A DNA stretch of 64,000 nt from Ceratodon purpureus (taxonomy: Eukaryota; Streptophyta; Bryopsida; Pseudoditrichales; Ditrichaceae): assembly GCA_014871385.1 (NCBI GenBank), contig CM026424.1:6377320-6441319 (forward strand), given 5' to 3'. Of this stretch, positions 1,689-61,014 are shown piece after piece. The notes beneath the pieces are model-generated. The model saw only the letters and a list, made by a program, of their open reading frames with translations. It was not told the DNA's origin and made no database searches. The position numbers and the translations under genes are program-made. Numbering within the stretch: position 1 is the stretch's first letter; the number at the start of each line of letters is the position of its first letter.

Positions 1689-1982
1689 CTTCACTTCCCT
1701 CCTACCCAAGAGTTGTCGCCTTGTGGGGGGTTCCGATGGCTTCGCTCCGCAATTTACGGACGCTAGGCGGAGCGGAGTAGCGATGGCGGATCTGGAGCAG
1801 AGGTTCGCAGATCTACACGCCAGCAGCAAGACGCTGCCTGAGAGGACCCGTGCAATCCTCTCAATCGCCACTCAACGACTCAACAACAACAAAAATCAGG
1901 TAACCCTAACACAAACAACCTTTGTATTGCGCAAATCTGATTACAATGTTTTTGTCCTAGTACAAGTTATTGCTCAATAGCT

Positions 1983-4574: not shown

Positions 4575-7500
4575 CTCCATCGACTTGCTATCGTGGAACG
4601 TTCGCGGTCTTTCCAGCAAGACCAAGGGCAAAAACAAAAGAGGACGCTTCCGCAACAGCATTAAAGCCCTAAATTTCAAGCCTGGGATCATTTTTATTCA
4701 AGAACACAAGATGAAACAAGAACAATGCGACCCACTCGGAGCCATGGGAATTCGCAGAGGAAAAGCCCACTGGAATGGAGCGGTACTCAATACCGAGACA
4801 TCAAGGTGGAGGGCAGGAACTGCAATCCTGACAAGCTCCGCAGTCCATCTCGCTACCCACTCAACCGGGATTATAATCCCTGGTAGGGCACAATGGCTTA
4901 TCTGTAAGCTCGAGAATTCCTTACAGGGGTTCCTAAACGTCTACGCCCCAAACTCAGGCCAAGAGAGAGCCTCTTTCTGGGACACCGTGGCCCGTAATCT
5001 TCCCAACGCAGATTCATGGGTAATGGGTGGAGACCTAAACATGGTGGAACACGAAGCTGACAGAAGTGGAAACCCCCCAAAGAAGCTTTCAAGAGAAGAG
5101 CAAGACGGGTGGGACAATTTGATCCTAAAATTAGGTCTAGAAGACACCTGGGAGAGTGACGATTTTTCGCACCATAACTCCCTCCGTTTCTCCTGGACCA
5201 ACAAACAGCAAGAGCTTTCGCACCTCATGGCCCGTCTTGACAGATTTTATGTGGGCGAATGGGGACGTAACAGAGGAGGAAAACTTGAAATCCTCGCAGG
5301 TTTCAACACCCTCTCTGACCACGTCCCTGTCCACCTACATATCCGAAGGAAAAGCCATCGCCAGGAGGATAATCGCTGCTTCAGGTTCAACACTTCCTTC
5401 CTTGAAGATGAGATGCTGGTCATAAAGCTTGCTACAGCTTGGGAGGCGGAGCCGCGGCCGACTGCCGACTCTGAGACCTGGGCTCTATGGGTAGTCAGAG
5501 CTCAGCTTCGTATCAAAGATTTCTGTCAACTGGAGGGCAAGAGGCGAGCGCAGGCACGGCGAGACCGAGAGAATCAGCTTCGAGGAACAGCGGCCTCAGC
5601 AGCGAGGCTTCTAGAAAGCGACCCGACAAATCCCTCTCTCCAGGCAACCCTTGCCTCGGCAAGCCAGGAGCTCCTCGAGAAGGAACAGAAATCAACCGAG
5701 TGGAAAGCACTCCGCTCCTCAGCCCGCTGGGCGCAGATTGATGGGCGAATGAATGGGGCTTTCTTTGAGGGCGTCCGTGAACACCACTCAAAAACCTTAA
5801 TCCCCGCCCTAATCGACCCAGCAGGAAGGGAATACTCCACCAACGAGGAGATGGCGAGCTATGCAAATTCATACTATCACGAGCTCTTCTCCACAGAAGG
5901 AAGCTCGCCTGCATGTGATCAAGCGCGAGAACACTGCTGGGCCCAAGTCCCGCAAACAGTAACCGCAGACATGAACGGCAGCCTCACCAGCCCTCTTTCG
6001 GAGAGAGAAATTTTTGAAGCGCTCAAAGCCCTCCCAACAGGGAAATCCCCTGGCATGGACGGTCTCCCCCCAGAATTTTTTCTTAAGGTATGGAACACGG
6101 TAAGCCAAGATCTCCTGAAAGTTTTTAATGAAGCCTTGCAGAAAGGAACCTTATGCAGAGACCTCAACACAGGACTGCTCTGTTTGATTCCTAAAGGGGG
6201 GGTCAAGACAAACATTAAAAATTGGAGACCAATAACAATCTTAGGATCCTTATATAAACTCCTTGCTAAAACCATGGCATTAAGAATCCAACCTCTTCTT
6301 AACAAAATTATCAGACCCAACCAAACGGGTTTCTTAAAGGGGCGTAGCATAATAGACAATGTCTTTTTAGCTCTAGAAACTATGGATTGGGCTATAGAAT
6401 CTAAACAACCTATGGTAATGCTACTTCTTGATTTTGAAAAGGCCTATGATAGGGTAGAATGGGGTTTTTTAGAAGGCACCATGAAAGCCATGGGCTTTGA
6501 TGACACATGGATCTCATGGATTCGTGCCCTCTATATAGAATCGTGGTGTGTAGTAGGACTAAATGGCACTACAAGTGAGCCATTTAAACTCACACGCTCT
6601 ATTCGTCAAGGTTGCCCCCTAGCCCCTTTTCTCTTCCTTTTTGTTGCCGATTGCCTAGGTCATGTACTTGAAAATGATCCTAATGTGGAAGGTATTCTTC
6701 TACCTAATACTAACAAGCCTCTAATAGACTGTGAGTTTGCAGATGATACTAACTTGTATCTAGCAGGGAACTTACAAAACCTCAACAACGCCAAAGCAGC
6801 CTTAAATATATTTTGCTTGGCCTCGGGGGCTAGAATCAACTGGAACAAATCCACGGCCATTTGGATCTCCCCCGACCCTCAACCCTTTTCATGGGGAAAC
6901 GACGTCAATCTTAACTGGCTTCAGCCCGGTGAGCTCACCCGCTATCTCGGTTTCCAGATAGGATACCAGGTCACTGCGGAAGACAGATTCGCTGCAGTCC
7001 TTGCGAGCCTCAGGAAGAAACTCGCCTACTGGAGCACAACCAAGTTATGCCTGGCCAGCAGAGTCCTTATAGCTAACCATGTTCTGCTCTCCTCGATTTG
7101 GTATGTTGCGAGCTGCTGGAGCCCCCACCTTCGCTCCATCGCTAAGGTACGCGCCCTCATTCGTAATTATATTTGGTCAGGGGAAAATGGTGAGCGGAAT
7201 TGTAGAGCGAAGGTTGCCTGGGATACCCTCATCCTCCCTCTCAAACAAGGAGGCATCAAGCTCCTTGATCCGGAGCTCCAAATCCAGGCCCTGCTGGCTA
7301 AGCTTTTCATTAGAGGTCTCATGCCTGGTGACGCTCCCTGGCGAGCATTGATACGCCACCGACTCTCCAACGTGCGACCGAAGAAAGGAGGTAACTGGCC
7401 CCCTCACCTTCATTTCATTTTATTTGCTAATTCCATCCACTCAAGTGGCTCAAGTCTCTGGCTAGGCATCTGGAAAGCCTGGACGAACATCCGCCATTAC

Positions 7501-8874
7501 TTGGTCTTCCAGCAACCCACGGTTCCGGAATCAGTCAGCAGACAATTTCTGTTCTGGAACGGGGAGCTACTCTCCGACGACGACCAAATGATAGGAGACT
7601 CGGCGCACGCCTTTGGCTGCCTCTGGATGCGGAAAGGCATTCAGAAAATCGGGGACCTGTGGAACTTCAACCAGGGCGACTGGAAAAGCGACCACGAGCT
7701 CGTCACCACCCTCGGCAGGAGGCTCACACGAGAACGTCGACACCAAGTCATCCAGACCATCCCTGTAAGCTGGTCTTTGACTCCCGCAGTCCCCCTTGCC
7801 CCCTTCGAATGGGCCGCCACCCTCAATGCCGCCGGGAAGGTAAGTTCTCTCTTCCAGATCCATGCCCCCGGCCAAGGGGCCCTGTTTGTTCAATCTAAAG
7901 AAGACTACTTCGAAAGAGCGAGTGGCCCCACACAAGACATTCGATTCCTCGATCTTCATCGAACCCGAGTGGTGTCAACATGCGGGGACCTCCGCACCAC
8001 AGTGACCAATCCGCGCCAGGAGTATTCGGGTGACGTCTGGAGCATGGGCCCTGTCGCTGCCCTCCCTTTTGACCCACTGGAATGGACATGGGACTCCGCT
8101 GGTCCCATCGACGAACAAGCCTTCCTCAACTATTCGGCGAGGAAAGGCTATCGAATTGGTTTACTCAACAAACCGCAGCGGGGTCGACTGCTCATCAAAC
8201 AAGCGCAACTTCGGCTCACGGAAGAAGAATCGGACCGAGCGATCAAGTTACAATGGAGCCCGCTCAAGCCAGCCAAGTTACAGTACTTCTCCTGGCAGTG
8301 CAACTCCGGTGGCTTGCCCACCGGTGCCTGGGCCAGCGTCATGGGCCACGATGCCGAATGTCGATGCTGTGCCATGGGCTTTACCGAGACTCTTGAACAC
8401 CTCTTTTCAGAATGCAGATTTGCCAGACGCATGTGGTGCCGAGTGATGGACATCCGACAAGCACTGGGACTGCCTCGCCAGCTCTCGTGGCGTGAAAAGA
8501 TCACCGGGATTCCTCCTGGCCCTCGCCCCGGCAACGGTGTTAGTGCTACCTGGGATATTCTCAGGCTTGCCCTCCTCTGGCACCTCTGGTGCGCTAGGAA
8601 CCGCTTCATCTTCTCAAATGAGAGCATTAGTGTCTTCCAAATCTGCCATCTCGCTTGGCGTGACACTATCTGTGCCGGCATGGCTCGTAGGAGTATTATT
8701 CTTAAAAATTGGAAGAAATGTGGTGATAAACGTAAGGAGAAATTAGCTCAGGAATTTCACACAGTTTGGTGTAGCAAAGAGGTTTTCTGCAAAGGCAGCC
8801 TTCTTTCTCCTCAGTGGAGGCTTACTCCTGCCCTCACTATGAGTCTGCGGCCCCTTAATTGGGACCCGGATTGA
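4564..8874 (+). CDS. LINE ORF2 protein: endonuclease and reverse transcriptase
   Basis: A 1436-residue intact enzyme that nicks target DNA and reverse-transcribes the element RNA. The N-terminal part (about 1-235) is an AP-like endonuclease: SWNVRGL at residues 10-16, E47 in FIQEHK, GGDLNM, and the SDHVPV histidine motif. The reverse transcriptase follows (about 470-760), with GKSPGMDG, LIPKGG, NQTGFLKGRSI, LLDFEKAYDRV and the catalytic FADD at residues 725-728. A zf-RVT domain lies near residues 1240-1320, with HxxxC and CRCC patterns. It starts inside the last codons of ORF1. The core RT stretch (about 6170-6830) is distinctly more AT-rich in codon use than the rest of the gene. All key residues are present, so an active enzyme is plausible. 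Confidence 0.95.
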   Translation: MQVDSIDLLSWNVRGLSSKTKGKNKRGRFRNSIKALNFKPGIIFIQEHKMKQEQCDPLGAMGIRRGKAHWNGAVLNTETSRWRAGTAILTSSAVHLATHSTGIIIPGRAQWLICKLENSLQGFLNVYAPNSGQERASFWDTVARNLPNADSWVMGGDLNMVEHEADRSGNPPKKLSREEQDGWDNLILKLGLEDTWESDDFSHHNSLRFSWTNKQQELSHLMARLDRFYVGEWGRNRGGKLEILAGFNTLSDHVPVHLHIRRKSHRQEDNRCFRFNTSFLEDEMLVIKLATAWEAEPRPTADSETWALWVVRAQLRIKDFCQLEGKRRAQARRDRENQLRGTAASAARLLESDPTNPSLQATLASASQELLEKEQKSTEWKALRSSARWAQIDGRMNGAFFEGVREHHSKTLIPALIDPAGREYSTNEEMASYANSYYHELFSTEGSSPACDQAREHCWAQVPQTVTADMNGSLTSPLSEREIFEALKALPTGKSPGMDGLPPEFFLKVWNTVSQDLLKVFNEALQKGTLCRDLNTGLLCLIPKGGVKTNIKNWRPITILGSLYKLLAKTMALRIQPLLNKIIRPNQTGFLKGRSIIDNVFLALETMDWAIESKQPMVMLLLDFEKAYDRVEWGFLEGTMKAMGFDDTWISWIRALYIESWCVVGLNGTTSEPFKLTRSIRQGCPLAPFLFLFVADCLGHVLENDPNVEGILLPNTNKPLIDCEFADDTNLYLAGNLQNLNNAKAALNIFCLASGARINWNKSTAIWISPDPQPFSWGNDVNLNWLQPGELTRYLGFQIGYQVTAEDRFAAVLASLRKKLAYWSTTKLCLASRVLIANHVLLSSIWYVASCWSPHLRSIAKVRALIRNYIWSGENGERNCRAKVAWDTLILPLKQGGIKLLDPELQIQALLAKLFIRGLMPGDAPWRALIRHRLSNVRPKKGGNWPPHLHFILFANSIHSSGSSLWLGIWKAWTNIRHYLVFQQPTVPESVSRQFLFWNGELLSDDDQMIGDSAHAFGCLWMRKGIQKIGDLWNFNQGDWKSDHELVTTLGRRLTRERRHQVIQTIPVSWSLTPAVPLAPFEWAATLNAAGKVSSLFQIHAPGQGALFVQSKEDYFERASGPTQDIRFLDLHRTRVVSTCGDLRTTVTNPRQEYSGDVWSMGPVAALPFDPLEWTWDSAGPIDEQAFLNYSARKGYRIGLLNKPQRGRLLIKQAQLRLTEEESDRAIKLQWSPLKPAKLQYFSWQCNSGGLPTGAWASVMGHDAECRCCAMGFTETLEHLFSECRFARRMWCRVMDIRQALGLPRQLSWREKITGIPPGPRPGNGVSATWDILRLALLWHLWCARNRFIFSNESISVFQICHLAWRDTICAGMARRSIILKNWKKCGDKRKEKLAQEFHTVWCSKEVFCKGSLLSPQWRLTPALTMSLRPLNWDPD

Positions 8875-18500: not shown

Positions 18501-20826
18501 TCAACATGGCTTCGAGAAACAGAATGATCAACTATACTTGCACTGGCGTTTCTATTAAAGGGTTTGATGCGTGTTGGCTGTCGGTGAAGTGGAGGCGAAT
18601 GGTCGATTTGAATGACTTGCAAATTTCTGGTCATGACCCAGTTAGGAGTACTCAACTGCATCGTCGTTGAGTAGTGAGATCCGTCTCTGTGCGGAGGTCC
18701 ACACGCAAACGTCCCTGGCAAAATCCCGGCAATACTCCAGCCAAACATAGTAGTCAGTCTATGGTTGGCTTTCAGATTGCTTGCAAGCAATTCTCGGATT
18801 CTGTGCAGCGCTGTGTTTGACAATGCAACGGCAAAGATGGTGATAACTTTGATCAGTGTCAAGTGCACATAACATATTTGCGATCGTCCTGAAAATCGCT
18901 GAGAAATCGTTGAAGCACACTATCAATCAAACTCTCGGTTACGCAACTCAGAACCGAGAAGAAACCGACTATGCATCAGTCAGCAGGCCGAGGCAAATGA
19001 GTTGAGCTACAAGCTGAAAAGCTCAGAAAAACCAACCTAATCCTGACACAGTGGCTATAAATTGCTGCTTGGAAGTGCATGTAATCTTTTAGCAAGAAAT
19101 GCAATTCTCTAGGTGAGAAGTACAGGTTGCACATTGCAATGATTTGCTGAGTAGCTGTGACGATTCATTTGGTAGTAGAACTCTTATTCTTTAGACTTGA
19201 TTCACATTGTACATTTCCGAGACACACGAGTTCCTTCGAGGGGTCAAAATTTGGCCTACGAGGGTTTTGATATGGAGTAAAAGCATGATGGACTTGTGAA
19301 ATCTGCAGTCGGAATGTCCTGAACTACTCCGGTGTACTAGTGAGTAGCAAACCTTTGTACTGCTTTGTACCTTATCCTCATCCGAGTTTCGAATATGTTG
19401 TTTTTAATTCTCCTCAACCCAGCACGGTGTGCTCTTGTCTAAGCTAAAACCTGCAGGATGATATATAAAGAGTACTGGAGGTGGACATTTATACATGTAG
19501 AATCGAAGATGGGCAATATTCAACGATAAAAACATGCTATCTCTTTGTTGATTACTGTAGTGGTTATCATTTAATTTGAAGACCACGATATTGTACCAAC
19601 ACAAACCAACGATGTTTGATGCTTTTTGTAAGATGTTTCGATATCACCTGAATATTGCAAAATGTAGAATATCAATTTGGATCCTAGCTAGATTCTCAGT
19701 TGAAGTTTGTCACTGAGCACTCGGGCCAATTTTCACCTTGCATTGCATAATCCACCACTGCAGAATATCTCCAAAGCGTTGTACAGTACAGTACATGAAA
19801 TTATTTAGGTTGAGTTTCAAGGAACCAACCGAAGCTCATTCTGAAAATTGTAGAAAATCCACTTCCATTCACACGACTCAGAACAGAGAAGAAAATTATC
19901 ATGTATCAGTTAACAGGCCCAGGCCGAAGCAAGTCCCACACTTGATACACCAACAGGTTTATTCAGCGGACACAAGTCAGAGTTACTTGTTATTCCAGAT
20001 TCTCATCCCTGAGTCTCTCCAACAATGGACTACACCAAATAGTTGCAGTATTTTATTTTTCTCATTTCTTCGTGCGACAATACAGTACTTCAAAGGCATT
20101 TAGACTAGTACACTTGGCCGAAGTACCCATTCAGTTGGCTCTAGTTCTAGAACAGCTTCTGTACAGGAGCAATTACAGACTTAGAGATTGCGTGCATTCC
20201 TTTTAACTCACTTTTATATATGGTAACACGTATCCGACTCCCTGCTATCACGCGCGTGACCCGGTAGGTCTCAAAGGATTCCTGGTCCTACAGCACTGCA
20301 AATACGACACGTCTGAATGTCTGTAGGGACCAGACTTCAAAGCCCAGACATTCTCATGAATCAATCAACATGCGATGACTGCCATATTGTATAAATTCAG
20401 GCCGACCCGCCCTTGTCATTGTGTCCATCACTCTTGACCTCAAGCACTTCGCCATGAGGCTTCTAGACTGCCAAGAGGTTTCGGATGAAGTCCTTGAGGT
20501 GGCAGAGCTGCAGATACACCAGCTGCGATGCAGTGTGTGGGAGTTTCTGTACACCATGTTTGCAAGAACATTGGTGCGTGTTATGTGTGGCATGCGAGAC
20601 TTAGTCCCCCTCAATCCATTTTCAGAGTAAGTGCCGATAACCCCTTTCGTGCTGCTGCGAATTCTTTTGCTAAGATGATCTTGCAGCTAGGAATATTCTG
20701 TAGTTGTGAAGCTGTGAAGGGTTGTGAATTTCTTGTGCTGGAATTAAGTTGAAGTTGTGAAGTTATGAATATCTTGAGAGGTGTGGAATTTCGATTAGTT
20801 ACAGTTGGTTCACTTGAATCAGGCGC
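18501..20826. other. Intergenic, diverged direct repeat, no gene recognised
   Basis: Contains the 3' UTR of the TRIM37-like gene, then about 2 kb without supported genes. Segments near 18940-19010 and 19850-19930 are diverged copies of each other (shared cores around ACTCAGAAC-GAGAAGAAA and ATCAGT-AACAGGCC), so this stretch includes an old duplication. A 40-residue frame beginning at 20454 ends at a possible donor (20574) but cannot be joined in frame to the next gene. Confidence 0.35.
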
Positions 20827-21639
20827 ATGATGGCAGCGAAACAAGCTCATTTCGGAGTTCATAGGTCAAGTTGCTCCTCGTCCTGTTCTAGTGAACAGAG
20901 TGTGGTGGGTGGAGGTCTGCAGAACTTTGAAGTTGGGTCTATGGAGGGATTGAGAGAGACAGAGGTGTTTCCGCTGCTCTTGAATGATCCTTGTGGGTCT
21001 TCGGTTACCGAGGGGCCATCGAAAAGAGGCAAAGTTTCTGGGCACATCTCGGAGAAGAAGTTTCAGGGCAACGGTGGTGGCCCAAGAGCAGCAGCAATAT
21101 TATTGACCTTATGCTTGTTGTTTTCTTCACCGAACGTGGATGCTTCAAGTTACAGAGGAGTTTCCAAACATAAGAATAGCAAATTTTTCCACTGTGAGAC
21201 GGAATATTTTGGTTCTTTACCGAGGAAAAAGATTTATTTTGGCAAGTTTGAAACTGAGAAGATGGCAGCATTAGCGTGCGACGTAGCCTTCTTCTACACA
21301 GGAATGCCTTCTGCGAAGTTCAATTTCAAGTGGTCAGAGGAAGTGATCTTGAATTTCTGTAAACAAAGATCCTTTTATGCAGATCTTACCAACTGGGATG
21401 ACAGAAGAAGATTCATCGAGGCTCAAGCAAACATTCTTGTATTGTTTGTACCAGACTTTCATTGGGAGGATATCATTTTAGTGCCCACTCCGGTCCCGAC
21501 AACAGTGCCAATTACTCCACGCCAACGATCGGAATGGATCGCAGGGAGAATTGTTCATCATTTTCGGAACCAGCCATGGCGAGTGCAAGGATTCATGGCA
21601 TGGTTCATGGAGCCCTCAACAGAGCGACGGATCCTAGAG
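20827..21639 (+). CDS. AP2-like domain protein (first exon)
   Basis: An open frame of 271 codons ending at a good donor (GAG|GTAATAG at 21639/21640). Around residues 105-170 it carries an AP2/ERF-like fold signature: SYRGVSKHKNSKFF, then KKIYFGKFETEKMAALACDVAFF, then a Phe-Asn-Phe end. In plants AP2 domains bind DNA. This copy is divergent and lacks several usual Trp/Arg contacts, so DNA binding is not assured. The N-terminus is Ser/Cys-rich. A hydrophobic stretch (about residues 92-105, AAAILLTLCLLF) precedes the AP2 region and is odd for a transcription factor; it may mark an unrecognised intron. The frame splices in phase into 21803, the exon before the kelch-like gene, so this may be the N-terminus of a larger protein. 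Without that join it stops at 21708. Confidence 0.55.
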
Positions 21640-21745
21640 GTAATAGCTCTAATCCACTACCTGGCTCCTAATTCCCTCCTATGTCCAATGTTGAGTTTCG
21701 CTCAATAATTTGTGTTGCTTCCTTTCTCATCAAGAACAACTTGAA

Positions 21746-23466
21746 ATGAGACATCATGTGCCTATGAATTCGCGTGACCTTGAACCTCGCATTATATGTC
21801 AGGTACATGCCCAAAAATCTTCATCAGCGACGCATGATACGATCTTGGGCGCTCCAGAAGTTGACTTGGTTTGGCCTATGAACCGGAACGATATTATTAC
21901 GGGCGTCGAATCCCTCGAGGCTCGTCCGGGCCGCAATCTGTGCTTGCTTCTAATCTTCGGAGGCGCACTACCATTCATCTTCAAATTGTTCGAATCAAAA
22001 CGCGCGGGTGGTGAATATGGTGGCGTTGACGATGTACATGTGGGTGATACGGCCCTTACTGACGGAGACAGTCGTCGGAGCTGGGCACGAATTGTCAAAA
22101 AACAGAAACTTCATCATTTAGCTTGTGACTACTTCAATTCAGGTATGGAATGCTTTGGCACTGTCTGTCATAGAGAAAACCACGTTACTGTATCATGCTG
22201 CAACTCCTTCGTTGATATTTCGTCACTCTTGTACATCCAGATCAAGCCTTGCTCACGGCAATCCACTATCACACCAAAAACAAGGAATTGATATGTACTG
22301 GATTTGATTTGCATTCAAAGACTTGGATATCACTGCCATCATTTACACCAGCAGTTCCGGCTCCAGATGAAGATCTCGTCAGAGAATATTCCGTTTGTGG
22401 CCATCGCGGCCTGATGTGTGCTGATGTTGCAAAATCAGGTGAGGAAGCTCAAGTGGTTGTATTCAACCCCTTGACCAGGAAGACACTTACACTGCCACCT
22501 CTATTGTATCCAAGAAGGCCAGTGCTGGTCCACCTGTTGGTCGATTCTGAGAACAAATCCTACAAAGTAATAGCTGCTGGGAGTTCGACCTATTTACAGG
22601 AGCACGGTCTATCGAAGAAAATGGAAGTGTTTGACTCCAAGACATTAGAGTGGGAGGAAGCACCTGACCTACCCGGGCCGGCATATGGACTCAATGAGTA
22701 CCAGACAGGTGTATGCGTGGACGGAATATTACACTTCATCACATTTCTGGAGGACGATTGCGGCAAGGGCGTGGTAGCATTTGATGTGGAGAACAGGAAA
22801 TGGTTGGACAATAGGACATGTCCAATCCCACTCTTTTCTAACTCAGATATCTTACAACTAGTTGAGAATGATGGAAAAGTATACCTCTTTTCTGAACAAG
22901 AGACAAGTACTATGAGGAGTCTGGTTGTGGAACATTGCATCGATTTGCTTGAGATCTCAAACCCTGAAGTAGGTCCAGTGGCGAAGTGCCGTTGGAAGCA
23001 GGTGGTTAGAACATGTAAGCAAAATCGCGGGCTTTCGGGTTATCCTGAGTATACGTGTGTGAGCTTTGGAGATGGGAAGCTGTGCGTGTTCAATACTCTT
23101 GAACGTGATGGTGTTGAGTATGACATGCAAGATGGAAGCATATGCGGGTTTGTACAGCCTCCGTCTCAAGATGAAAGTCAATTCTTCAGCTTGAATCCAG
23201 CGTCATTCATGTTGCAGCTGAGCATTGCCACCAATCCAGAACCTCCAAATGCAGGCAGCGATCCAGTACTTCAAATTACAGCCAGCGGTGGCTCGGTACC
23301 TTGTTTGAACGGAACTGGCAATTCACTGCCGCCTTCAAACGAAGCCAGTGATCCACTACCGCCTTCAAATGAAACCACCGATCAACTTCCACCAAGCAGA
23401 GACAGTGATTTAGCACAACCTACAGTTGGTGGATTTAGATCGTTGTGGAGTTGGTTTGGATTTTGA
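21746..23466 (+). CDS. Kelch/F-box-associated-like protein
   Basis: Exons 21803-22142 and 22241-23466 join in frame (split Asp codon). The second exon encodes beta-propeller-like repeats of the type found in plant F-box/kelch and F-box-associated proteins: VVVFNPLTRKTLTLPPL, MEVFDSKTLEWEEAPDLPGP, GVVAFDVENRKWLD, DGKVYLFSE and FGDGKLCVFNTL. Such domains recruit substrates to SCF ligases. No F-box is visible upstream, where one would be expected. The first exon instead has a hydrophobic stretch (RNLCLLLIFGGALPFIF) and acidic, polar sequence. A local start is possible at the ATG at 21746; the alternative is in-frame splicing from the AP2-like exon (total 792 residues). The C-terminus has three imperfect repeats around LPPSNE. 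Function beyond the propeller assignment is inference. Confidence 0.6.
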
Positions 23467-31079: not shown

Positions 31080-34022
31080 GTGCAATGGCCAGGTGGAGTG
31101 AGACGGCGTCCTCGTAAGTACACGAAGGAGGAGAAAGGGAAGAGCACGAAGCCGAAACAGCACCGGAAGCCCAAGGGTTGGGAGATACCAATTGTCGTCC
31201 CAAATGTCACGGTGGGGGTCCAAACGCGGGCGCAAGCAGCGCTGTGCGCTAAGTACGAGCGATAGAGGGTGAACGACGAAACCATCTGCGAGGTGCTTGC
31301 TGACTTCCGCTACGAGTACGATGAGTTTGACGACATAGTGGCGCCGGAGTCTTTGCACTCCGTAGGAAGCATGGAGACATGCAATATCAACCTGTGGGAC
31401 TCCGTTTTCCGGGACGACGCTTGGAGGTCGACGCTCCCTCCCATTGCGAGGCATACCGGCTTTGGAGCTACACATCCCGGTGGAGCGCTTGAGAGGCTGG
31501 TGCGTGTCGCTGTGGGGGATATGCCTGAGAGGTTTATCGACACATACGTTGACTGGAGCTCCCGTCGGTCTGGGTGGGCTGTCCTAGTCCCGAATAGATT
31601 CCTCTCCGAGGCATCATTCCACACCGGGGACACACCCTCCTGGACGCAGGGAGATGTCATTGGGGAGGGTCTGCACACGGGTACTGGGAAGAGGATGGTG
31701 TTATGCGACCTCGGCGGCTACAACATGGAGCTACACATGCCGGAAGAGAATGTCCGTGTGGCAGATGGCCCAGAAGTCCGTGCCTATGGTTCCGAGGGTG
31801 GTCACGGGTATGGTTGGTGGAAACGCCAGCATTGCTTCAGCCCGAAGAATGCTGTCGTTTTCCCGGAAAATCTGGAGTCCCACCCTGGAACTCCAGGCAG
31901 AGGTTCCGGAAGCATGAGTGGAGGGGCAGGACGGGGACCGGATGCGGGCGGGGCTTTCCATGCGTACTCAAGCGGTGTCGCAGGGGGAGGTGTTGGGGGG
32001 GTAAACCATAGATCCTGCGCCGGTGGCAGTGAAGAAGGACCGGGGCGAACAGAGCATGTCGCTAAGAACACCTGTGGCGACGCAGGGTCCGTCGAGCCAC
32101 ATGGTCACCCCATCGCGGACTATGATGCCCCCTCTGACATCGAGGGGGTTGACGGTACTCAAGACTCAACGGCGAGAGCAACTTTTCCTAAGGTAAGCGC
32201 TCATCTGCCTCGATACATGCTGTGTCCTAACAGGACTCTAGGGAACGATGAGGGTGGGGGGGGGTTGCCTCTACTGTCAGCAGACTCTAGTGACGCGGAG
32301 TGGATCCCAGAGTGGGAGGACGATGTAGAAACCAACGATGAGGAACGACTGGGCGTAGATGAAGAGGACCCAGAGAACGATCAGCCGGGGTTGGAGAGTT
32401 GGTGCATGCGGCCGGAGGCCTTTACACCCCGGCACATGGATACAATGGAGCTTGCCCATCACTATCGGAAAAGCTCCTGGTCTTCAGGCAGCGTCGACTT
32501 CTTTCGGAGCCGTGACGACTTCACGGGCCCTCCTCCTGGTCTGACCGCCCCTCCACCTGAAGGAGTTCCTCTCCCCCACAGAGTCTTCGATATGTACTGG
32601 ACGGATGAGTGCGTGGACCGGATTGTAATGGAAACGAATAGGTACGCGCAGACAACCATGCCTCCTCTGGAGAATCAGCGTCCGCGTACGAAGGGGGGAC
32701 CAAGGTGGTACGAGGTCGCTCGGGTGGAGATGCGGGGATGGCTCGCAATCTGCATACTCATGGGGTGCAAACAATTGCCCAGTATCAGGCAGTATTGGAT
32801 GCGTAGTGTTCCATTCCTGTACTGCGATCTGATATCCTCCATCATGACTTTATCGAGGTGGGAGGCCATTATGCGTTGCCTGCATCTGATAGATAATAGT
32901 ACTGTTGTAAGGGATGTGAATGACCCGAGGTATGACACGATAGCAAAGACCAGATGGATTGTCGACATGTTTGTGAAGGTATCGAAGGAGATTTATAACT
33001 TAGAAAGGGAAATCACCGTGGACGAATGTGTAATCCCCTACAAGGGCCGTTACTGCCACATCAGGCAATTCATGCCTAAGAAGCCAGCCAGGTTTGGAAT
33101 AAAGGTCTGGCTGCTGGCAAGCTCAAAGAGTCGTTTTGTTGCGGGGATGGAGGTATATTTTGGTGAAGGGACAGGGGCTGGCCCTAATGGTTTGGCTTAC
33201 CACGTGGTTGAGCGAATGGTGGCGGGGCTTGAAAACCGCAGGCATTTCCTCGTGATTGACAACTTCTTCGGAAGTGTGAACCTCTTCCACGAGCTAATGT
33301 GTAATGGGATATGGGCAACGGGTACAGTGCGGCGTTTAAGTAAAAACTTGCCTGCGGGTCTCTTGAGGACGGTGGATGGGAACATGCGGGGTTCAATGGT
33401 GATCTGGACTCACGTGCACCGCCAGATGGCCGTAGTATCTTGGCAAGATAAAAAACTAGTAACACTACTGAGCACCGCAACGTCTCCATGAGAACCGAAC
33501 ACCTCAGTACTCCGGAGGATACCTGGACGTCGAGGTCAGGTTGAGGTGCCTTCATCCCCCATGCACCGGCAGTACGTAGAGTACATGCGCGGTGAGGACG
33601 TCGCAGATCAACTCCGGGGGAGCTACTCCTGCCAACTCCGTTGTCACAAGTGGTGGGTAAAAATTTTTCACCTCGTCCTGGATCAGACTATGGTCAACTC
33701 GTACGTCACCTGGAAGAAAGAGGTTGAGCAGCTTGGTTCCCCAGTGATGTCCCATTTGAAGTTCAAAATCACTGTTGGTAAGCATCTGGCTGAGGAGGCA
33801 ATACAGAGCCGAAGACGACAAAGATTCCCCGCTGTACCCGCACCGAGGCGCCCCCTACCCGTCCACACACTATTCCGGTCTCCCCTGAAGCGACGCTGTA
33901 TAATTTGCGGCCGAGTGCAGAAATGGTTCTGTTCATCTTGCGGAAACAAGTGGATGTGTCAGGAAGCATGCTACCAAACACAACATGAAAGGTTACAGCG
34001 GCCTACTGGCAGGGCGCTCTGA
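31080..34022 (+). pseudogene. piggyBac transposase (DDE_Tnp_1_7), interrupted by two stops
   Basis: One frame runs from 31080 to 34022, broken only by TAG at 31263-31265 and TGA at 33489-33491. The N-terminal third is basic, then acidic and low-complexity. The piggyBac domain begins near 32590 (DMYWTDECVDRIVMETNRYA) and includes the conserved WLAICILMG region. Catalytic aspartates are visible: D1 in VDECVIPYKGR (codon 33021), D2 in LVIDNFFGS (codon 33258) and D3 in GEDVADQL (codon 33597). The C-terminus has the zinc-binding Cys-rich tail of the family (CIICGRVQKWFCSSC, with further Cys and His). The TGA separates D1 and D2 from D3 and the Cys-rich tail, so the conventional product would be inactive. 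The transposase would excise and insert at TTAA. Readthrough or a spliced form cannot be excluded from sequence alone. Confidence 0.85.
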
Positions 34023-39536: not shown

Positions 39537-42500
39537 TCACAGCTCAAATGGTAAATTATACGCATATGATTTACAGTGCCATAAATCCTTGCGTATGTCT
39601 TGAAATTTGGGTCGGTCATTCGGATTTTGAGCCCAACACTTCTCAATCAGCTCCTTCAACACTCTAGGGCACTCACGAGGAAACAAAGGGCGACCTCCAC
39701 TACAAATGAACTCTTGTATATCTGAGAATTTCGTAAATGCCTTGAAAGGAGCTCGTCCAGTAAAGATCTCGTAACAGGTCATTCCGAAACTATAAACATC
39801 TGCAGGCCATGTGTATAGATCCTTTGACCTCTCGTAGATTTCAGGTGCCATGTAAGCAGGCGTTCCTCTGTTGTACGACCAGAAATTAGAATCTTGGCCT
39901 CGCAGCTTTGAGTCTCCAAAATCTATAAGTTTGATGGTGTAAAACATAGGGATATCACTACATTCAGCTGGCAAAGAGTCTGCCATGAATTTGGAACACA
40001 CAAGGCAGTTCTTTGGTTTCAGATCTCGGTGTAGTACACCACACTCTTTCAAGTGAATCATGGCTTCGACAATCTGTAATGCAATGTCCAATGCTACCGG
40101 TAAAACAAAAGGTATACCAGGTGGACCAACATTTTTCCGTTTTTGCTTTATCAAAGAAGTCAAGTCCTGTTCCATGAGCTCAGTCACAATGTACCCTTTA
40201 GGATATGATATATCGTCTTTGTGTGCATATCCCAATAACTCAACGACATTTGGATGTCGAACTCGTGCTAAAAGGTCAACTTCTGCTTTCACTTGTTCTT
40301 CTGACATACTCATAACAGCAACTGCCACTGTTACTCCCAACCACTTGCATTTCTTGACAGTTTTGGAGGCTCCAATTGCAATCCACTCTTTATTTGTGCG
40401 ATCCAGGTTGTCAATGTAGAAGCAATCAGTTGGTGTCGAGCTGGAACTCGGGCTATCGGGGGATGTTCCCAGCAACCTTTTCTTCCAAATGCCTTCAAGT
40501 AGGTCTTGGTTTTTAGCATTGCGGAAAATCACTTCTTCATCATGCAATTTTCTCTTAGTCCGGAAAGGAAAGCAGTATGTTGCAAGAGAAGACACCGAAC
40601 GAAGCATGCTCGCAGAATCATTAACAGATGGAGGAGTGGCGGACAGCTGGCCGATGGGGTTTGCATTGAGGGCTGCTTGCAAAGCTTCTCGGTCCTTGGT
40701 TTGCCGATGAACATCAGATTCTAAAGTCTCGTCTTGGATGCCAGGGAACTCCATCTCAGAATAAAACCGACACTTCTCCTCGCTCCATCTCCACTTGCCC
40801 ATTGGAATAACCTCATCAATATGCGGTTGTTTGACATAGCAAATGAAATCCAGGGTCCAGTCTAACTCTCGAAGTAGCAAGGCAAATCTTGAAAATGCTG
40901 GTACAGAAGGTGGTGGTGATGACAATGCGAAGGCAGCCATGTTGTAATGATTTTCACAGCAGGATAACAGCAAAGCCTCCCCCTCCAGCATACAACACAG
41001 AAATTTCACTAAAGGCGCATACCATGCTACCATAGGCCCTTCGTCCCCACTGGCATTCAAGAAGTGCAATGCTCCCAGAACTATGTCCACTCCTACCCGA
41101 AATTTCTCAAGTAAATGTGTACATTGGTTGCTCCATATCCTTACGTTGTTCAGTTCAAGCTCCTCCATCCTCCTTAGAAGTTCCAGAATAACCATCTCGC
41201 TATCTTGGAGATCCTTTTTAGAAGAACTTTGAAAACAGTATACCTTATCCACACTTCTGGAAATGGTGACCTTTTTCTCAACGTAGAAGTCATGCAAACC
41301 AAAATCGTAGAGGCTGCTTATAATCTCTTCATCCTTTCCAATTGTCATAATTGCTTCTTGCCAGTATTTCAAATCTTCAGGTAATTTTTTCTTTTTAGCC
41401 AGGAATCTGCCCATAACTTCGAGTGCAAGAGGCAATCCACAACAGGCTGTTGTAATCTTGTTCACAAGATCATGCAAAGAAGCATCCACAGCTAGCAAAT
41501 TGTTCTCCTGAAATGCACACCAAATAAAAACTCGCAAGGAGTCTGAAAAACTCAGCTTAGGCACTTCGTGAAGTGCACTTTGTACAGTGCCCTGTGTAAC
41601 AGCATCTATAATAGTCTGCAAGATGTCCTTTTCACAAGATGTGATTAGAACTCGACTTCCTGGAGCAAGCTTTTCCAAATCAGGTATCAACTCATCAAAT
41701 TGCTCCTTCTCTGTGATATCATCAATTACAAGGAAAACTTTTTGGTTTTGGATCTTCTCAAACCAACGACCAAAATCCCACTGCATCTTCATAGCATCCA
41801 CTTGAAGCAATTCTGTCACCATCTTCATTTGTAAACCCATAAAATTGACACCCTTGGAATCCTTTACATTGGTAAGGAAACAACAATGTTGAAAGTTTAA
41901 CCGCTCATTGATGTACACTTCATGTGCAATGGTTGTCTTCCCAATTCCAGAAGTCCCATAAATCCCCAAGAGCCCTACATCATCTCCCATACTGTGTAGA
42001 GTGTTGATTACACATGAGGACTGATTGGAGTCTTCAAGTTGACGGAGTGCAGGCAACAACTTCAGTACAGCTGCTACAACCTTCTTCACCAACTTCATTT
42101 CTCTGTTAGACCATAGTCACATTAGAACCATATGGAAGCAAACAATAACCATTTAATATCTGCGAGTACAACATTGACATTATTCATATTAACATCATGC
42201 AGGATTATCGTGGTTCGAGAACTCACCCGCCATTACAATCAGATAGACTTAATCCTTTGAGTTCAGACACCGCTTGAAGAGCTTCTTTCCATCTGCTCAC
42301 CTCTTCACACCCCCGTCTCGTCGAGTGACGAAGAAATGCTTCATAAAACAATCCCCCATAAACCTCTACATGCCTCAAGTCCTTTGGCTTGACATTATAA
42401 AATACTGGAATTATAGGCTTCCCAGTTGCCAGCATTTCACACAACTCATTTAAGCAGTACTTAGATTCTGCATATCGTGGAGAGAGTATGGCAACATGCA

Positions 42501-42735
42501 CAAGCGTTCCGGAGATGGCCTCGTTGATGCTTGAAAAAGCAGCTGTGCCCTTCACAAGTGACTTGGCATCCAAAAAAGGAGGATGACCAGCTTCACAAAG
42601 TGCTTCATAGAGATGTGAAATAAAGGTCCTTTTTGAATCAGGCCCTCGGTGATTCAAGAACACATCATACTTTGGCAAGGAAGGAACAGATGAGCCTGAG
42701 CAAGAGCTTGAAAGATTTTCCGTCGCCCGCTCCAT
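39537..42735 (-). CDS. TIR-NB-ARC protein with MLKL-like domain and C-terminal pseudokinase
   Basis: Exons 42735-42227 and 42102-39537 join in frame across a 124-bp GT-AG intron, giving 1024 residues. Residues about 22-165 are a plant TIR domain (YDVFLNHRGPDSKRTFISHL) with the catalytic-type glutamate E97 in CLNEL, so NADase activity is possible. The NB-ARC follows, with P-loop GIYGTSGIGKTT (K225), VFLVIDDI Walker B, RVLITSC and GLPLALEVMG; I see no ARC2 MHD motif and no LRR. Residues about 470-640 form a helical region matching the pattern of the plant MLKL N-terminal (DUF1221) domain: SNQCTHLLEKF and WYAPLVKFLCCMLEGEALLLSCC. Residues about 740-1020 are a protein kinase fold with HRDLKPKN (D863) and DFG (D897), but the beta-3 VAVK lysine is Ala765 and the Gly-rich loop is poor, so it looks like a pseudokinase. 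Expected role: intracellular immune receptor and executor. The fusion inference rests on one unbroken 2.5-kb exon. Confidence 0.88.
42103..42226 (-). other. Intron of TIR-NB-ARC gene
   Basis: Minus strand: donor GTGAGT directly after the codon for Gly169 plus two bases, acceptor TCTAACAG. Splicing rebuilds a Gly codon and continues into GEMKLVKK. It falls between the TIR and NB-ARC domains, the usual position in plant TIR-type receptor genes. Confidence 0.85.
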
Positions 42736-47297: not shown

Positions 47298-48489
47298 CTA
47301 TTGCTCCTTCCGTTCAGAATCGGTTTTCTGAACCTTCACATAAGGCAGAACTCCCAACAGATACTCCATCCTCGGGTTCCAGTTGAGCTGCTCAGCTCGG
47401 CAATACTGTAAGAATGTATTGCCAAAATATGAGTTGAACCCCATGAGCACATGCCACAAAGCATGACCTTGAACATTTATCGGAAGCTTCGCCATCTGGT
47501 TGCAGAAAAACCGGTCTGCGAACCAGAATATTCCTCCCACAACGAGAAACAAGATGTAGCGGTGAGCTAGTTTCCTCACCGGTGCTTCTTTTGAGTGGAT
47601 GTAATACTTGTACATCCTTGGGAGACACAGCACCGCCAGACAGACCAATTGTATTTGAAATCCCACAACGAACCTGAACTGGGAGTGCAGAACGGCGAAG
47701 ATTGTTCCATAAAGGAACAGGACTGTAGGCATTGTACTGCGGTAATGCCAATCTGGAGAATAGAGGACGTAGATGTAGAGGAGCATCACCCATACCATGG
47801 GGGTTTCATCGCTCTGCTGTTGACTGCTCTTGAAGCCAAACATGCAAACAAGACAACAGCTAGTGAGGACTTCATTATACTGAAAATGAAAAATTAGTAG
47901 TTCAACCACGTTATTGCATTGCACGGGCCTCACATGAGCAAATGAAGGTGATTCTTCTTTCGTACATTAGTAAGAGACTTGCTTCAATAGAATTCAATCA
48001 TTAACAAAAACCTACTAAATTATAAAACTTCTGTTCTCTAAACTCATGCAAAGACTTGGAAATTCAAATGCATTGTTGCACGTTAGGATTAATAGGCTAA
48101 GGGAATCTAGAAGGCACGAATAGCTCTTGAAAAACAAATCAACAGCATAGAACTATCGGTCGAATAGGCATCCTGAGAGTACACTTTGCAAACTCGAATA
48201 TGAACACTTACGCATGTTTAAGAGTAGCATGAAAGAGGATACTGCCGAATCCAAGCGCGATCGTCGACAAGTGAAGAACACTAAATCGCCGCTCAAACTT
48301 TTGACTAATAGCGTAATACAAGCCTATTAATGCAAGGATGATACCGGGTGCGTTGGATATGGTGTTGTAAAACTCAGCCACCATGGGTGTAACCACATAA
48401 TTCTTTTCACACCACTCAGTGCTCGCGGTAATTGGACCCCAATACCCCGCTGACGATGTCGTGGCAGAGGTGAAAGCCTCCCCCGCCAT
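47298..48489 (-). CDS. Alkaline ceramidase (ACER family)
   Basis: Two exons, 48489-48212 and 47823-47298, join in frame (Ala93 split) to give 267 residues, the usual length of ACER/YPC-type enzymes. The family is a seven-helix membrane hydrolase of the ER/Golgi that cleaves ceramide or phytoceramide into a sphingoid base and fatty acid. The zinc and catalytic residues are all present in the right spacing: S83 and H87 (FGSILFHATLKHA), D98 (QQSDETPM), H213 and H217 (GHALWHVLMGF). The N-terminal YWGPITASTEWCEKNYVVTP and EFYNTISNAPGI segments are typical of plant members. Seven hydrophobic segments can be traced. The intron (GTAAGT to GAGCAG) is 388 bp. In plants these enzymes tune sphingolipid signalling and stress responses. 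Confidence 0.93.
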
Positions 48490-59190: not shown

Positions 59191-59598
59191 TGAAGCCCTG
59201 AAGCCCATTTCTCGAGAAGCCTATTACCAGTGAGGCCCATACACCTAGGTAAAGCCTATTTTTATCACCATCCCTTATCACCATCTGACATTCCACGTCA
59301 AGCTTGGCACCTTCTAGATTAGAAATAATTAAGAACTACTACATTAGAATTAGATTATAAATAATTAAAAATTATTAAATTAGAAATAAATGAGTTTGGT
59401 GATAATGTTGTCGTTAAATGAAAATTAGGTTAAAAGTAGGTAAAGAAGCGGTGCATTGAATGAAGTTTGGTAGGATTTTTTTCAATATAATGAACTAAAC
59501 ATTCCGTCATTCTCATTCTCTTTGATTTGCGTCTTGTCTTCTCATTTTCTTCTCATTTGCATCTGTGTTCATACTTTTGTGTGTTTTTTTTCTCAACC
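59191..59598 (+). promoter_or_regulatory. Leader region of the Helitron RPA-like gene
   Basis: AT-rich region between the minisatellite and the start codon. No Helitron 5' terminus can be fixed. T/C-rich sequence just before the ATG at 59599 could be the transcript leader. Confidence 0.3.
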
Positions 59599-61014
59599 AT
59601 GGCACTTCCTGCTAGCAAGTCTAGAGCAAGGTTGGTGGTGTCTGTAGATGATCTTACTGAGGGTACTAGAGACGTAGCATTTGAGGGGAAGATTTTGTCT
59701 AGGTATGGAAATTGGGATCCAACCAAGGATGTCAAACATCCCTATCTTCATTGTGATTTACTTGATAGAGAAGGGTACACTACCATTACGATGAGTTTGG
59801 TGCGCCCTCAGATTGAACAGCATGAAGGGAAGTTGAATGTTGGATCATTCATTCGTATAGAGAACTTCGGTGTAGCTTCCAAGTCTGAGAAGTCGTTTGA
59901 GAAGGGTGATATGCCTGTTGTGTTGAAGGTCCAGTCTACCACATCTGTCACCACCATATCTAATGGTGGTGAAAATGAGTTCATTCCTAAGTTTTATCAT
60001 AGTGATAGTATTGCTGAGTTTCGTAAACGCTCCCATGAACAGTGGCCAACAGCAACTATTGCTGTCTGTGTCATTGGTATCAGAGGCACATATGGTCGTT
60101 ATCACCAGCTAGTGATAGCTGATGGATTTACCGAAAGTGATAACGACATTGTGGCACTTGGTCCCCAATTCCAGAAAGAATACAACCAGATCGTTGAAGC
60201 TTTCAATAGTGGTCAATGTGTTATGGTTTTGTTTAAAAACCTTAGTGTTTCTCAATCTGGAGAGCGTTACCTTCGCACAGAAGCAAGCACAATTATATCA
60301 TCTGTTGTTGACAACTTCGTCCAAATGCAATTGCAGTCTATCCACAACAGATTGTGTTCTACAACTCCAGCTTCAACAAGAGAGGTATTTTATTTTGACA
60401 ATCATTTTCAATCGATTTACTTTTAAGATTTATATTAAGTTTTAGTAACTGTATTGTATTATTTTTTGCAGATTTATGGGACATTAGCAATTGCTAGTCC
60501 AACAGTAGCTCCTTACAAATACGTGTGCAATAAGTGTAATCTCTCCAACCTCATTGTTGTTGAAGAAGGTTTCTATTGCAACGTATGTCACAGCCCTCAA
60601 CCTGTTAGAAAGCAAGCATATCTTCGTGGAAGGATTTCTACAGCTACTCAAGCAGTCACTATGTACCTTGAAGGCCAGTGGCTACAAACTCTTGTAAGAA
60701 TGACAGAAGAACAATTTTTGAAGCTTTCAAGAGGAGAACAGATCAAGATGCTTACTGCTTTCCGGATCAAAGGTACATTTTGGTTAACTCCTATGGCTAT
60801 TTTGAATGGATTTGAAGAAGATATGGATACGAGCAACTTCAGTTCTTTGGATATGCCTACTTCTAGTGCCGGAAGACCTCTGAGTTGCACACAAGATTCA
60901 GTTCCAGGGATCGATATGGAAGGAGATGGAGGGACTCCATGCACTCAAAGGTACAAAAGGAAACTTGACAATGACAATGTAGGAGCATCTAGCAATAAGG
61001 TTAAAAAGACTTAG
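59599..61014 (+). CDS. RPA70-like single-strand DNA-binding protein (Helitron-type)
   Basis: Two exons, 59599-60384 and 60472-61014, join between codons to give 442 residues. The first exon shows OB-fold features (FEGKILSRYGNWD, HCDLLDREGYTTITM, GSFIRIENFGV, then a second unit with YHQLVIADG). The second exon begins a third OB-like unit holding a four-cysteine zinc ribbon, C281-X2-C284 and C298-X2-C301, as in the C-terminal DNA-binding domain of RPA1. The C-terminus is polar and ends in Lys-rich KRKLDND and NKVKKT, a likely nuclear signal. Plant Helitrons commonly encode such RPA-like proteins, thought to coat single strands during rolling-circle transposition. AT-rich codons match the OTU gene downstream rather than host genes. 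It could instead be a host RPA paralogue; the neighbour makes Helitron origin more likely. Confidence 0.78.

Follow-up and report, generated by a model that had tools for sequence, protein, structure and literature searches.

Plant MLKL proteins assemble into tetramers in which the HeLo domain is buried. The HeLo domain of AtMLKL is said, after work by Mahdi and colleagues in 2020, to kill cells and yet to be dispensable for immunity. In Arabidopsis the three MLKLs have redundant roles in TNL-mediated resistance, roles that do not extend to CNL-mediated resistance (PMC9950082). A HeLo-type domain next to a kinase with a role in immunity is also found in Pm13, a wheat MLKL_NTD-kinase whose kinase is predicted to be active, reportedly with the full set of usual kinase residues, and in which mutations of the kinase domain lead to loss of resistance (PMC10951266).

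Kinases are the most abundant domain fused to NLRs, at either terminus and as early as in mosses, and at least some of them were interpreted as probable sensors (PMC4759884). In these fusions, C-terminal cases included, the kinase is attached to an NB-ARC protein and, according to that survey, the catalytic lysine and aspartate are conserved in all. The Pkn-NLRs of non-flowering plants combine NB-ARC with an N-terminal kinase, and NLR-IDs have expanded in Ceratodon (PMC11218826). Non-seed plants are described as having TIR proteins but no EDS1 family (PMC9153377, PMC11218826) and RNL helpers as seed-plant specific (PMC9153377), so moss TIRs need another output. In the Wnk kinases the lysine has shifted from position 72 to 55 (PMC1821047, PMC4718504), and in a 2007 survey they were given as the only functional ePK family lacking K72 (PMC1821047).

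The Ceratodon purpureus protein KC19_4G073200 shares with the NLR-kinase fusions a kinase joined to an NB-ARC protein but differs from them in its relocated lysine and in the MLKL-type helical domain that its kinase additionally brings. Its kinase is C-terminal, unlike that of the Pkn-NLRs, and it has a TIR-NB half, which Pm13 (PMC10951266) does not. The initial annotation of the locus stated that known bryophyte variants put the kinase at the N-terminus, which overlooks the known class of C-terminal NLR-kinase fusions (PMC4759884). Among the titles and abstract beginnings listed in literature searches, none described KC19_4G073200 or the lysine-shifted clade to which its kinase belongs; the supplements of PMC11218826 and PMC4759884 may list the gene.

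Gene model and genomic surroundings

The stretch of DNA analysed (the window) is 64 kb long, and all features of the gene given below lie on its minus strand. The top match of the protein search was KC19_4G073200 (1024 aa), 100% identical over the searched regions, and the two-exon model agrees with this annotated protein, also in the tblastn comparison. The TIR exon (exon 1, 42227..42735), read from the ORF and its translation, encodes residues 1-169 and two bases of codon 170. The intron (42103..42226) is of the GT...AG type and 124 bases long; the join matches the annotated protein, and the sequence at either side is collinear with sister TIR-NB-ARC proteins. Exon 2 (39537..42102) carries the NB-ARC, the helical domain and the kinase, residues 170-1024, and ends with the stop codon at 39539-39537. 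The coordinates, strand and splice sites initially proposed were confirmed by sequence, ORFs and annotated protein, and the domain order TIR, NB-ARC, MLKL-type helical domain, kinase was upheld. The last 853 residues had been assigned to one exon; the single exon stands, the count does not (854 whole codons and part of codon 170). Since the fusion of NB-ARC to kinase sits within this exon, it is not a splicing artefact, as had been argued.

Pfam matches were obtained for TIR (7e-26), NB-ARC (2.5e-21) and PK_Tyr_Ser-Thr (1.5e-39), all above the curated cut-offs. Of the four families expected from the initial annotation, DUF1221 was the one without a match, either with exon 2 at E up to 1 or with a 292-aa piece at E up to 10.

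Elsewhere the window contains a LINE-type element at 1941-8874 (plus strand; a DUF4283 frame followed by endonuclease, reverse transcriptase and zf-RVT in a long frame), a piggyBac-type transposase (DDE_Tnp_1_7) at 31266-34022 (plus strand), split by a stop into two frames, and a ceramidase exon at 47301-47966 (minus strand). Weaker features, all on the plus strand, are a sub-threshold AP2 match at 20818-21705, a frame with weak kelch-type matches at 22216-23463, and two frames at 59494-61011 that by eye resemble replication protein A (Helitron-like) and have no Pfam match at 0.001.

The TIR-NB-ARC half

The TIR domain (residues 22-165, 42241..42672) has the flax L6/L7 TIR structures as its best PDB matches. 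The Glu of its CLNEL motif, E97 (codon 42447-42445), aligns with the CLMEL Glu of these structures, which we take to be catalytic, and is invariant across 8 TIR-NB-ARC proteins; the earlier assignment of E97 as a catalytic-type residue is thereby upheld. The NB-ARC (41346..42011) was aligned with 7 TIR-NB-ARC proteins and comprises the NBD and ARC1 only. Its P-loop GTSGIGKTT (41957-41931) is intact, as previously noted, and a GLPL motif is found at 41438-41421. The linker preceding the NBD has a gap of 7 residues relative to the aligned proteins.

The MHD-bearing region of the aligned TIR-NB-ARC proteins has no counterpart in KC19_4G073200, that is, winged helix and MHD are missing, and Pfam lists no LRR family for exon 2 up to an E of 1. 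Of the 23 other matches of a search with residues 1-450, 20 list PF23282, presumably a TNL winged-helix family; KC19_4G073200 does not. The protein thus shares with TIR-type NLRs a TIR with its catalytic-type Glu and an NB-ARC with its P-loop, but differs from them in having neither winged helix/MHD nor C-terminal LRRs. The sensor switch named in the initial annotation is incomplete in the alignment, and normal switching is doubtful because the NB-ARC stops after ARC1.

The fusion joint

Judged by where the alignments end, KC19_4G073200 is chimeric, with an abrupt transition from a moss TIR-NB-ARC (residues 1-434) to a member of another family (residues 438-1024). BLASTP alignments with three C. 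purpureus TIR-NB-ARC proteins (P0123, 54%; P0124, 51%; P0126, 48%) all stop at residue 434. From residue 438 to its C-terminus the protein instead aligns with P0004 (48%), which has neither TIR nor NB-ARC. The blastp and tblastn ends place the joint at 41300..41310 within exon 2 (residue 434 at 41310, residue 438 at 41300), an interval of about 10 bases. The moss TIR-NB-ARC(-LRR) proteins KC19_8G078500 and M758_12G073700 have TIR and NB-ARC in common with it up to residue 434 (54% and 51% identity); their winged helix, MHD and LRR are replaced in KC19_4G073200 by the helical domain and the kinase.

The first residues behind the joint (437-468, 41208..41303) are probably a remnant of a DUF7748-like repeat, comprising its last strands. 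Aligned without gaps to residues 167-198 of P0004 they gave a BLOSUM62 score of 67 (300 shuffles: mean 11, maximum 29), and to P0009 a score of 47 (shuffle maximum 27). The score with P0006 (36) was inside its shuffle range (maximum 38), and the other 9 of the 12 proteins tested scored 3 to 17, not above shuffles. DUF7748 itself is a sub-threshold Pfam match in P0004 (20.8 bits, cut-off 25). Because residues 437-468 resemble the end of such a repeat, the tail was probably taken from inside a gene with a DUF7748-like repeat.

The MLKL-homologous tail

The AlphaFold2 model of the helical-kinase module (mean pLDDT 79, pTM 0.85) contains four long helices and a short one, followed by brace-like helices. 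The HeLo/MLKL_NTD-like helical region (40818..41219) has its helices at model residues 6-29, 35-62, 66-91, 94-105 and 116-139; the brace-like helices (model residues 171-191 and 232-255, 40470..40724) lie between bundle and kinase, collinear with MLKL chains. Profile A3, built from the module family without DUF1221 proteins, matches the chains 6lba (residues 14-517, E 1.8e-63) and 6ka4 (17-514, E 1.1e-58), which we take to be AtMLKL2 and AtMLKL3, over helical domain, brace and kinase. Mouse MLKL 4btf was the only one of the best 50 Foldseek rows whose alignment spanned the model, though with a poor fit (563 columns, rmsd 18.3). The VIA-align and Foldseek searches with the whole model were dominated by the kinase, and neither 6lba nor 6ka4 was among the best 50 rows of either.

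For the helical part by itself the results were weaker. As a single sequence it had one chance match in the PDB (E 0.37), and a protein search with it returned 5 proteins, one of them the query itself; DUF1221 was listed for none of them. In local hhalign, 17 module sequences aligned with the N-terminal domains of six DUF1221-bearing proteins at E 0.0046 (probability 8%). Once three other domains were added to these six, E was 3.7e-5 (71%), and against the first N-terminal domains of the tandem proteins it was 0.3; the reversed controls gave 0.7, 0.19, 0.024 (reversed 'other' set) and 0.78, and NB-ARC 0.52. When only the seven nearest module sequences were used, E was 0.075 and 4.1e-4 for the same two domain sets, and the alignment to the 'other' set (0.086) was worse than a reversed control (0.015). 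With the two PDB sequences added the values were 0.01 and 5.5e-4 (reversed: 0.6 and 0.41). In a decoy ranking 7 of 18 true N-terminal domains stood above the best of 1818 decoys, and the remaining 11, 6ka4 among them, did not. Given the weakness of the hhalign and decoy results, the homology of the helical part to MLKL depends on a weak local signal together with collinearity with the kinase. A Gln and a Cys of the helical domain are invariant in the module family and likewise in the aligned DUF1221-bearing rows. The initial assignment of the tail to MLKL thus largely holds, as profile homology over helical domain, brace and kinase, with a weak signal for the helical part alone; the DUF1221 identity that it had included was not confirmed by Pfam.

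The lysine-shifted kinase

The kinase domain (39564..40424) retains HRDLKPKN (HRD at 40031-40023), DFG (39923-39915), APE and the alpha-C Glu (Glu777, 40283-40281). The usual VAIK lysine position (PKA position 72) is occupied by A765 (40317..40319), and in alignments and trees a lysine, K750 (40362..40364), replaces the third glycine of the glycine loop (PKA position 55), the arrangement known from WNK; the first glycine of the loop has been lost. With HRD and DFG intact and the lysine shifted to the glycine loop, the kinase looks active, unlike an MLKL-type pseudokinase. From the plant MLKLs 6lba and 6ka4, with which the collinear arrangement of helical domain, brace and kinase is shared, KC19_4G073200 differs in these intact motifs, in the glycine-loop lysine, in the absence of a DUF1221 match and in the position of the module at the C-terminus of a TIR-NB.

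The distribution of the two lysines was followed in 147 kinase windows from the first 120 matching proteins; windows with an HRD-like motif before residue 110 were dropped and proteins without such a motif contributed none. K72 was present in 121 windows, 0 of which had K55. The 26 windows without K72 included 17 with K55, all within the module family, 6 from DUF1221-bearing proteins (one of melon) with Arg at position 72, and three others, namely P0010 (Ser/Ser) and windows of P0048 and P0086. These counts are not independent because the rows are relatives picked by similarity. In a tree from which the two lysine columns had been removed (39 of the 147 windows, matches up to P0039 minus four proteins), the 17 K55 windows and P0010 formed one supported set (99/88). 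A quicker tree of 46 windows recovered the same 18-member set (support 86), nested within a larger set of 20 windows in which its sisters are two canonical kinases. A single origin of the lysine shift therefore suffices. All but one of the 18 clade members retain K55, a degree of conservation that 38 of 213 columns reach, while position 72 varies (Ala 11, Ser 5, Gly 2), which points to selection for the relocated lysine. Twelve of the 18 have an intact DFG; the others read GFG (P0010), DFE (P0023) and DFQ or DFY (four second kinases of tandem proteins). These incomplete motifs, and the missing first glycine in KC19_4G073200, argue against full activity across the clade.

WNK kinases have the same two features, loss of the VAIK lysine and a shift from 72 to 55 (PMC1821047, PMC4718504), but the best PDB matches of KC19_4G073200 are MLKL, BRAF and other TKL/TK kinases. 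No WNK was among the best 60 PDB rows for P0002, P0014 or profile A3, and the trees held none; the shift in the module clade is presumably convergent with that of WNK.

In the DUF1221-bearing MLKL-type kinases P0027, P0028, P0030, P0032, P0036 and P0039, Arg replaces the VAIK Lys, and the shortened glycine loop contains a Lys of ambiguous position. A glycine-loop lysine common to DUF1221-bearing MLKLs is not claimed: HMMER places it there in 6lba and two residues later in 6ka4, and it also falls two residues after the K55 position in those of the other sequences in which it was aligned.

Relatives of the module and search for similar fusions

Relatives of the module occur alone or behind various other N-termini. 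It follows DUF7748-like repeats in P0004 (sub-threshold Pfam) and P0006 (by eye), and in P0014 and P0015 a P-loop region judged by eye to be similar to an AIG1/GIMAP-type GTPase, with a weak Pfam GTPase match in P0014 only; a GTPase of this type would be another immune-linked NTPase. Lone short members P0005, P0007 and P0008 start with MGNSxS (MGNSRS or MGNSES), which we take to fit an N-myristoylation motif; the unfused module may thus be membrane-associated. Found alone and behind various partners, the module looks like one output unit under several controls. Four C. purpureus chromosome 9 proteins (P0011, P0012, P0013 and P0018) have a VAIK-lysine kinase followed by the helical region and a lysine-shifted kinase. 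Their second kinases may be dead because DFQ or DFY replaces DFG.

The fusion of the module to a TIR-NB is so far a single example, a second one having not been found in the protein searches. No kinase family is listed for the other 23 proteins matching residues 1-450; among the best 120 of 2880 protein matches NB-ARC (PF00931) is listed for KC19_4G073200 only, and TIR_2 for one bacterial-type kinase, P0097. The two protein searches scored 7983 and 8000 candidates and relied on exact shared words, so relatives may be missed. The second C. purpureus annotation (M758 tags) occurs among the matches for other genes, and no separate M758-tagged counterpart of KC19_4G073200 is among the matches listed, where an identical copy would be merged.

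Possible modes of action

We tentatively propose, at somewhat less than an even chance, that KC19_4G073200 is a chimeric immune protein, a TIR-NB-ARC that has lost winged helix and LRRs and gained a C-terminal MLKL-homologous output module of bundle, brace and kinase. The domain make-up, the joint, the MLKL profile homology, the catalytic residues and the conserved lysine shift are observations; the working of the protein would be as follows. Self-association of TIR and NB would gather several modules while the TIR produces its nucleotide signals. The clustered kinases, using the glycine-loop lysine, would phosphorylate one another or a partner, phosphorylation would free the helical bundle from the kinase, and the freed bundle could then cause membrane damage or defence signalling.

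The tail could instead be an integrated decoy, a HeLo-kinase bait for effectors to which the TIR-NB responds, alone or with a partner NLR. The abundance of kinases among NLR-fused domains, some of them read as probable sensors (PMC4759884), and the expansion of NLR-IDs in Ceratodon (PMC11218826) speak for such a role, which we hold to be less likely than not but plausible. On the other side, the tail is a complete output-type module and not just a kinase, its catalytic residues are retained, and it stands where an ordinary NLR has winged helix and LRRs; a tblastn search of the 64 kb window (7 queries, E 1e-4) revealed no further NLR-like gene. A doubtful but plausible alternative is that TIR-NB clustering activates the kinase to start a defence cascade, with the helical domain as scaffold or inhibitor and no pore. 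The HRD, DFG, alpha-C Glu and shifted lysine agree with it, as does the dependence of Pm13 resistance on a kinase predicted to be active (PMC10951266); retention of the helical domain in the module family with its invariant Gln and Cys, shared with DUF1221-bearing rows, suggests that this domain is more than a spacer.

Finally, an in-frame fusion made by deletion or linked to a transposon may have left an unimportant product, or the joint may be an assembly error. The single example, the loss of winged helix, LRR and part of the pre-NBD linker, the glycine loop without its first glycine, the transposon-type genes in the window and the M758 result above all fit this account. We consider it unlikely; against it, the 2.6-kb exon is still open, the catalytic motifs are kept and the TIR intron is intact. 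Moreover, among the matches listed the C. purpureus relatives of either half are at most 54% identical, so that KC19_4G073200 did not arise by recent copying of genes present today. The four readings (wired output, bait, kinase signalling without a pore, relic) overlap and are not mutually exclusive, kinase signalling in particular overlapping with wired output.

The proposal of an output module wired to a TIR-NB is favoured by module relatives that look like one output unit under several controls, by the catalytic residues and the shifted lysine kept in 17 of 18 clade members, by the intact TIR Glu and P-loop, and by the absence of EDS1 from seed-free plants and the restriction of RNL helpers to seed plants, as described in PMC11218826 and PMC9153377. 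Against it, the bundle lies inside the chain, behind the NB-ARC, and therefore lacks the free N-terminal helix of MLKL or CC-NLRs. The NB-ARC has no winged helix or MHD and the sensor repeat is absent, a second TIR-NB fusion of this kind was not found in the search with residues 1-450, NLR-fused kinases are often read as bait (PMC4759884), the loop has lost its first glycine while DFG is complete in just 12 of 18 clade members, and the helical part by itself gives a weak profile signal. The reported dispensability of the AtMLKL HeLo domain for immunity also counts against the proposal.

Implications

An annotation of KC19_4G073200 as 'TIR, NB-ARC, kinase' conceals its MLKL-type module. Should the lysine shift prove functional, it would provide another example besides the Wnk family of the 2007 survey (PMC1821047) and a warning against calling VAIK-less kinases dead. 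It is possible, though we consider it less than likely, that mosses, or at least C. purpureus, have an MLKL-related clade in which the lysine moved independently of WNKs and which provides a partly active, portable output module, wired in this gene to a TIR-NB with no need for EDS1 or RNLs. The fusion echoes the dependence of Arabidopsis TNL immunity on MLKLs (PMC9950082). Since mosses lack EDS1 and RNLs, a unit of TIR-NB and MLKL-type module is a concrete candidate for a TIR output, and this natural fusion offers a testable candidate for TIR signalling in plants without EDS1 and RNLs.
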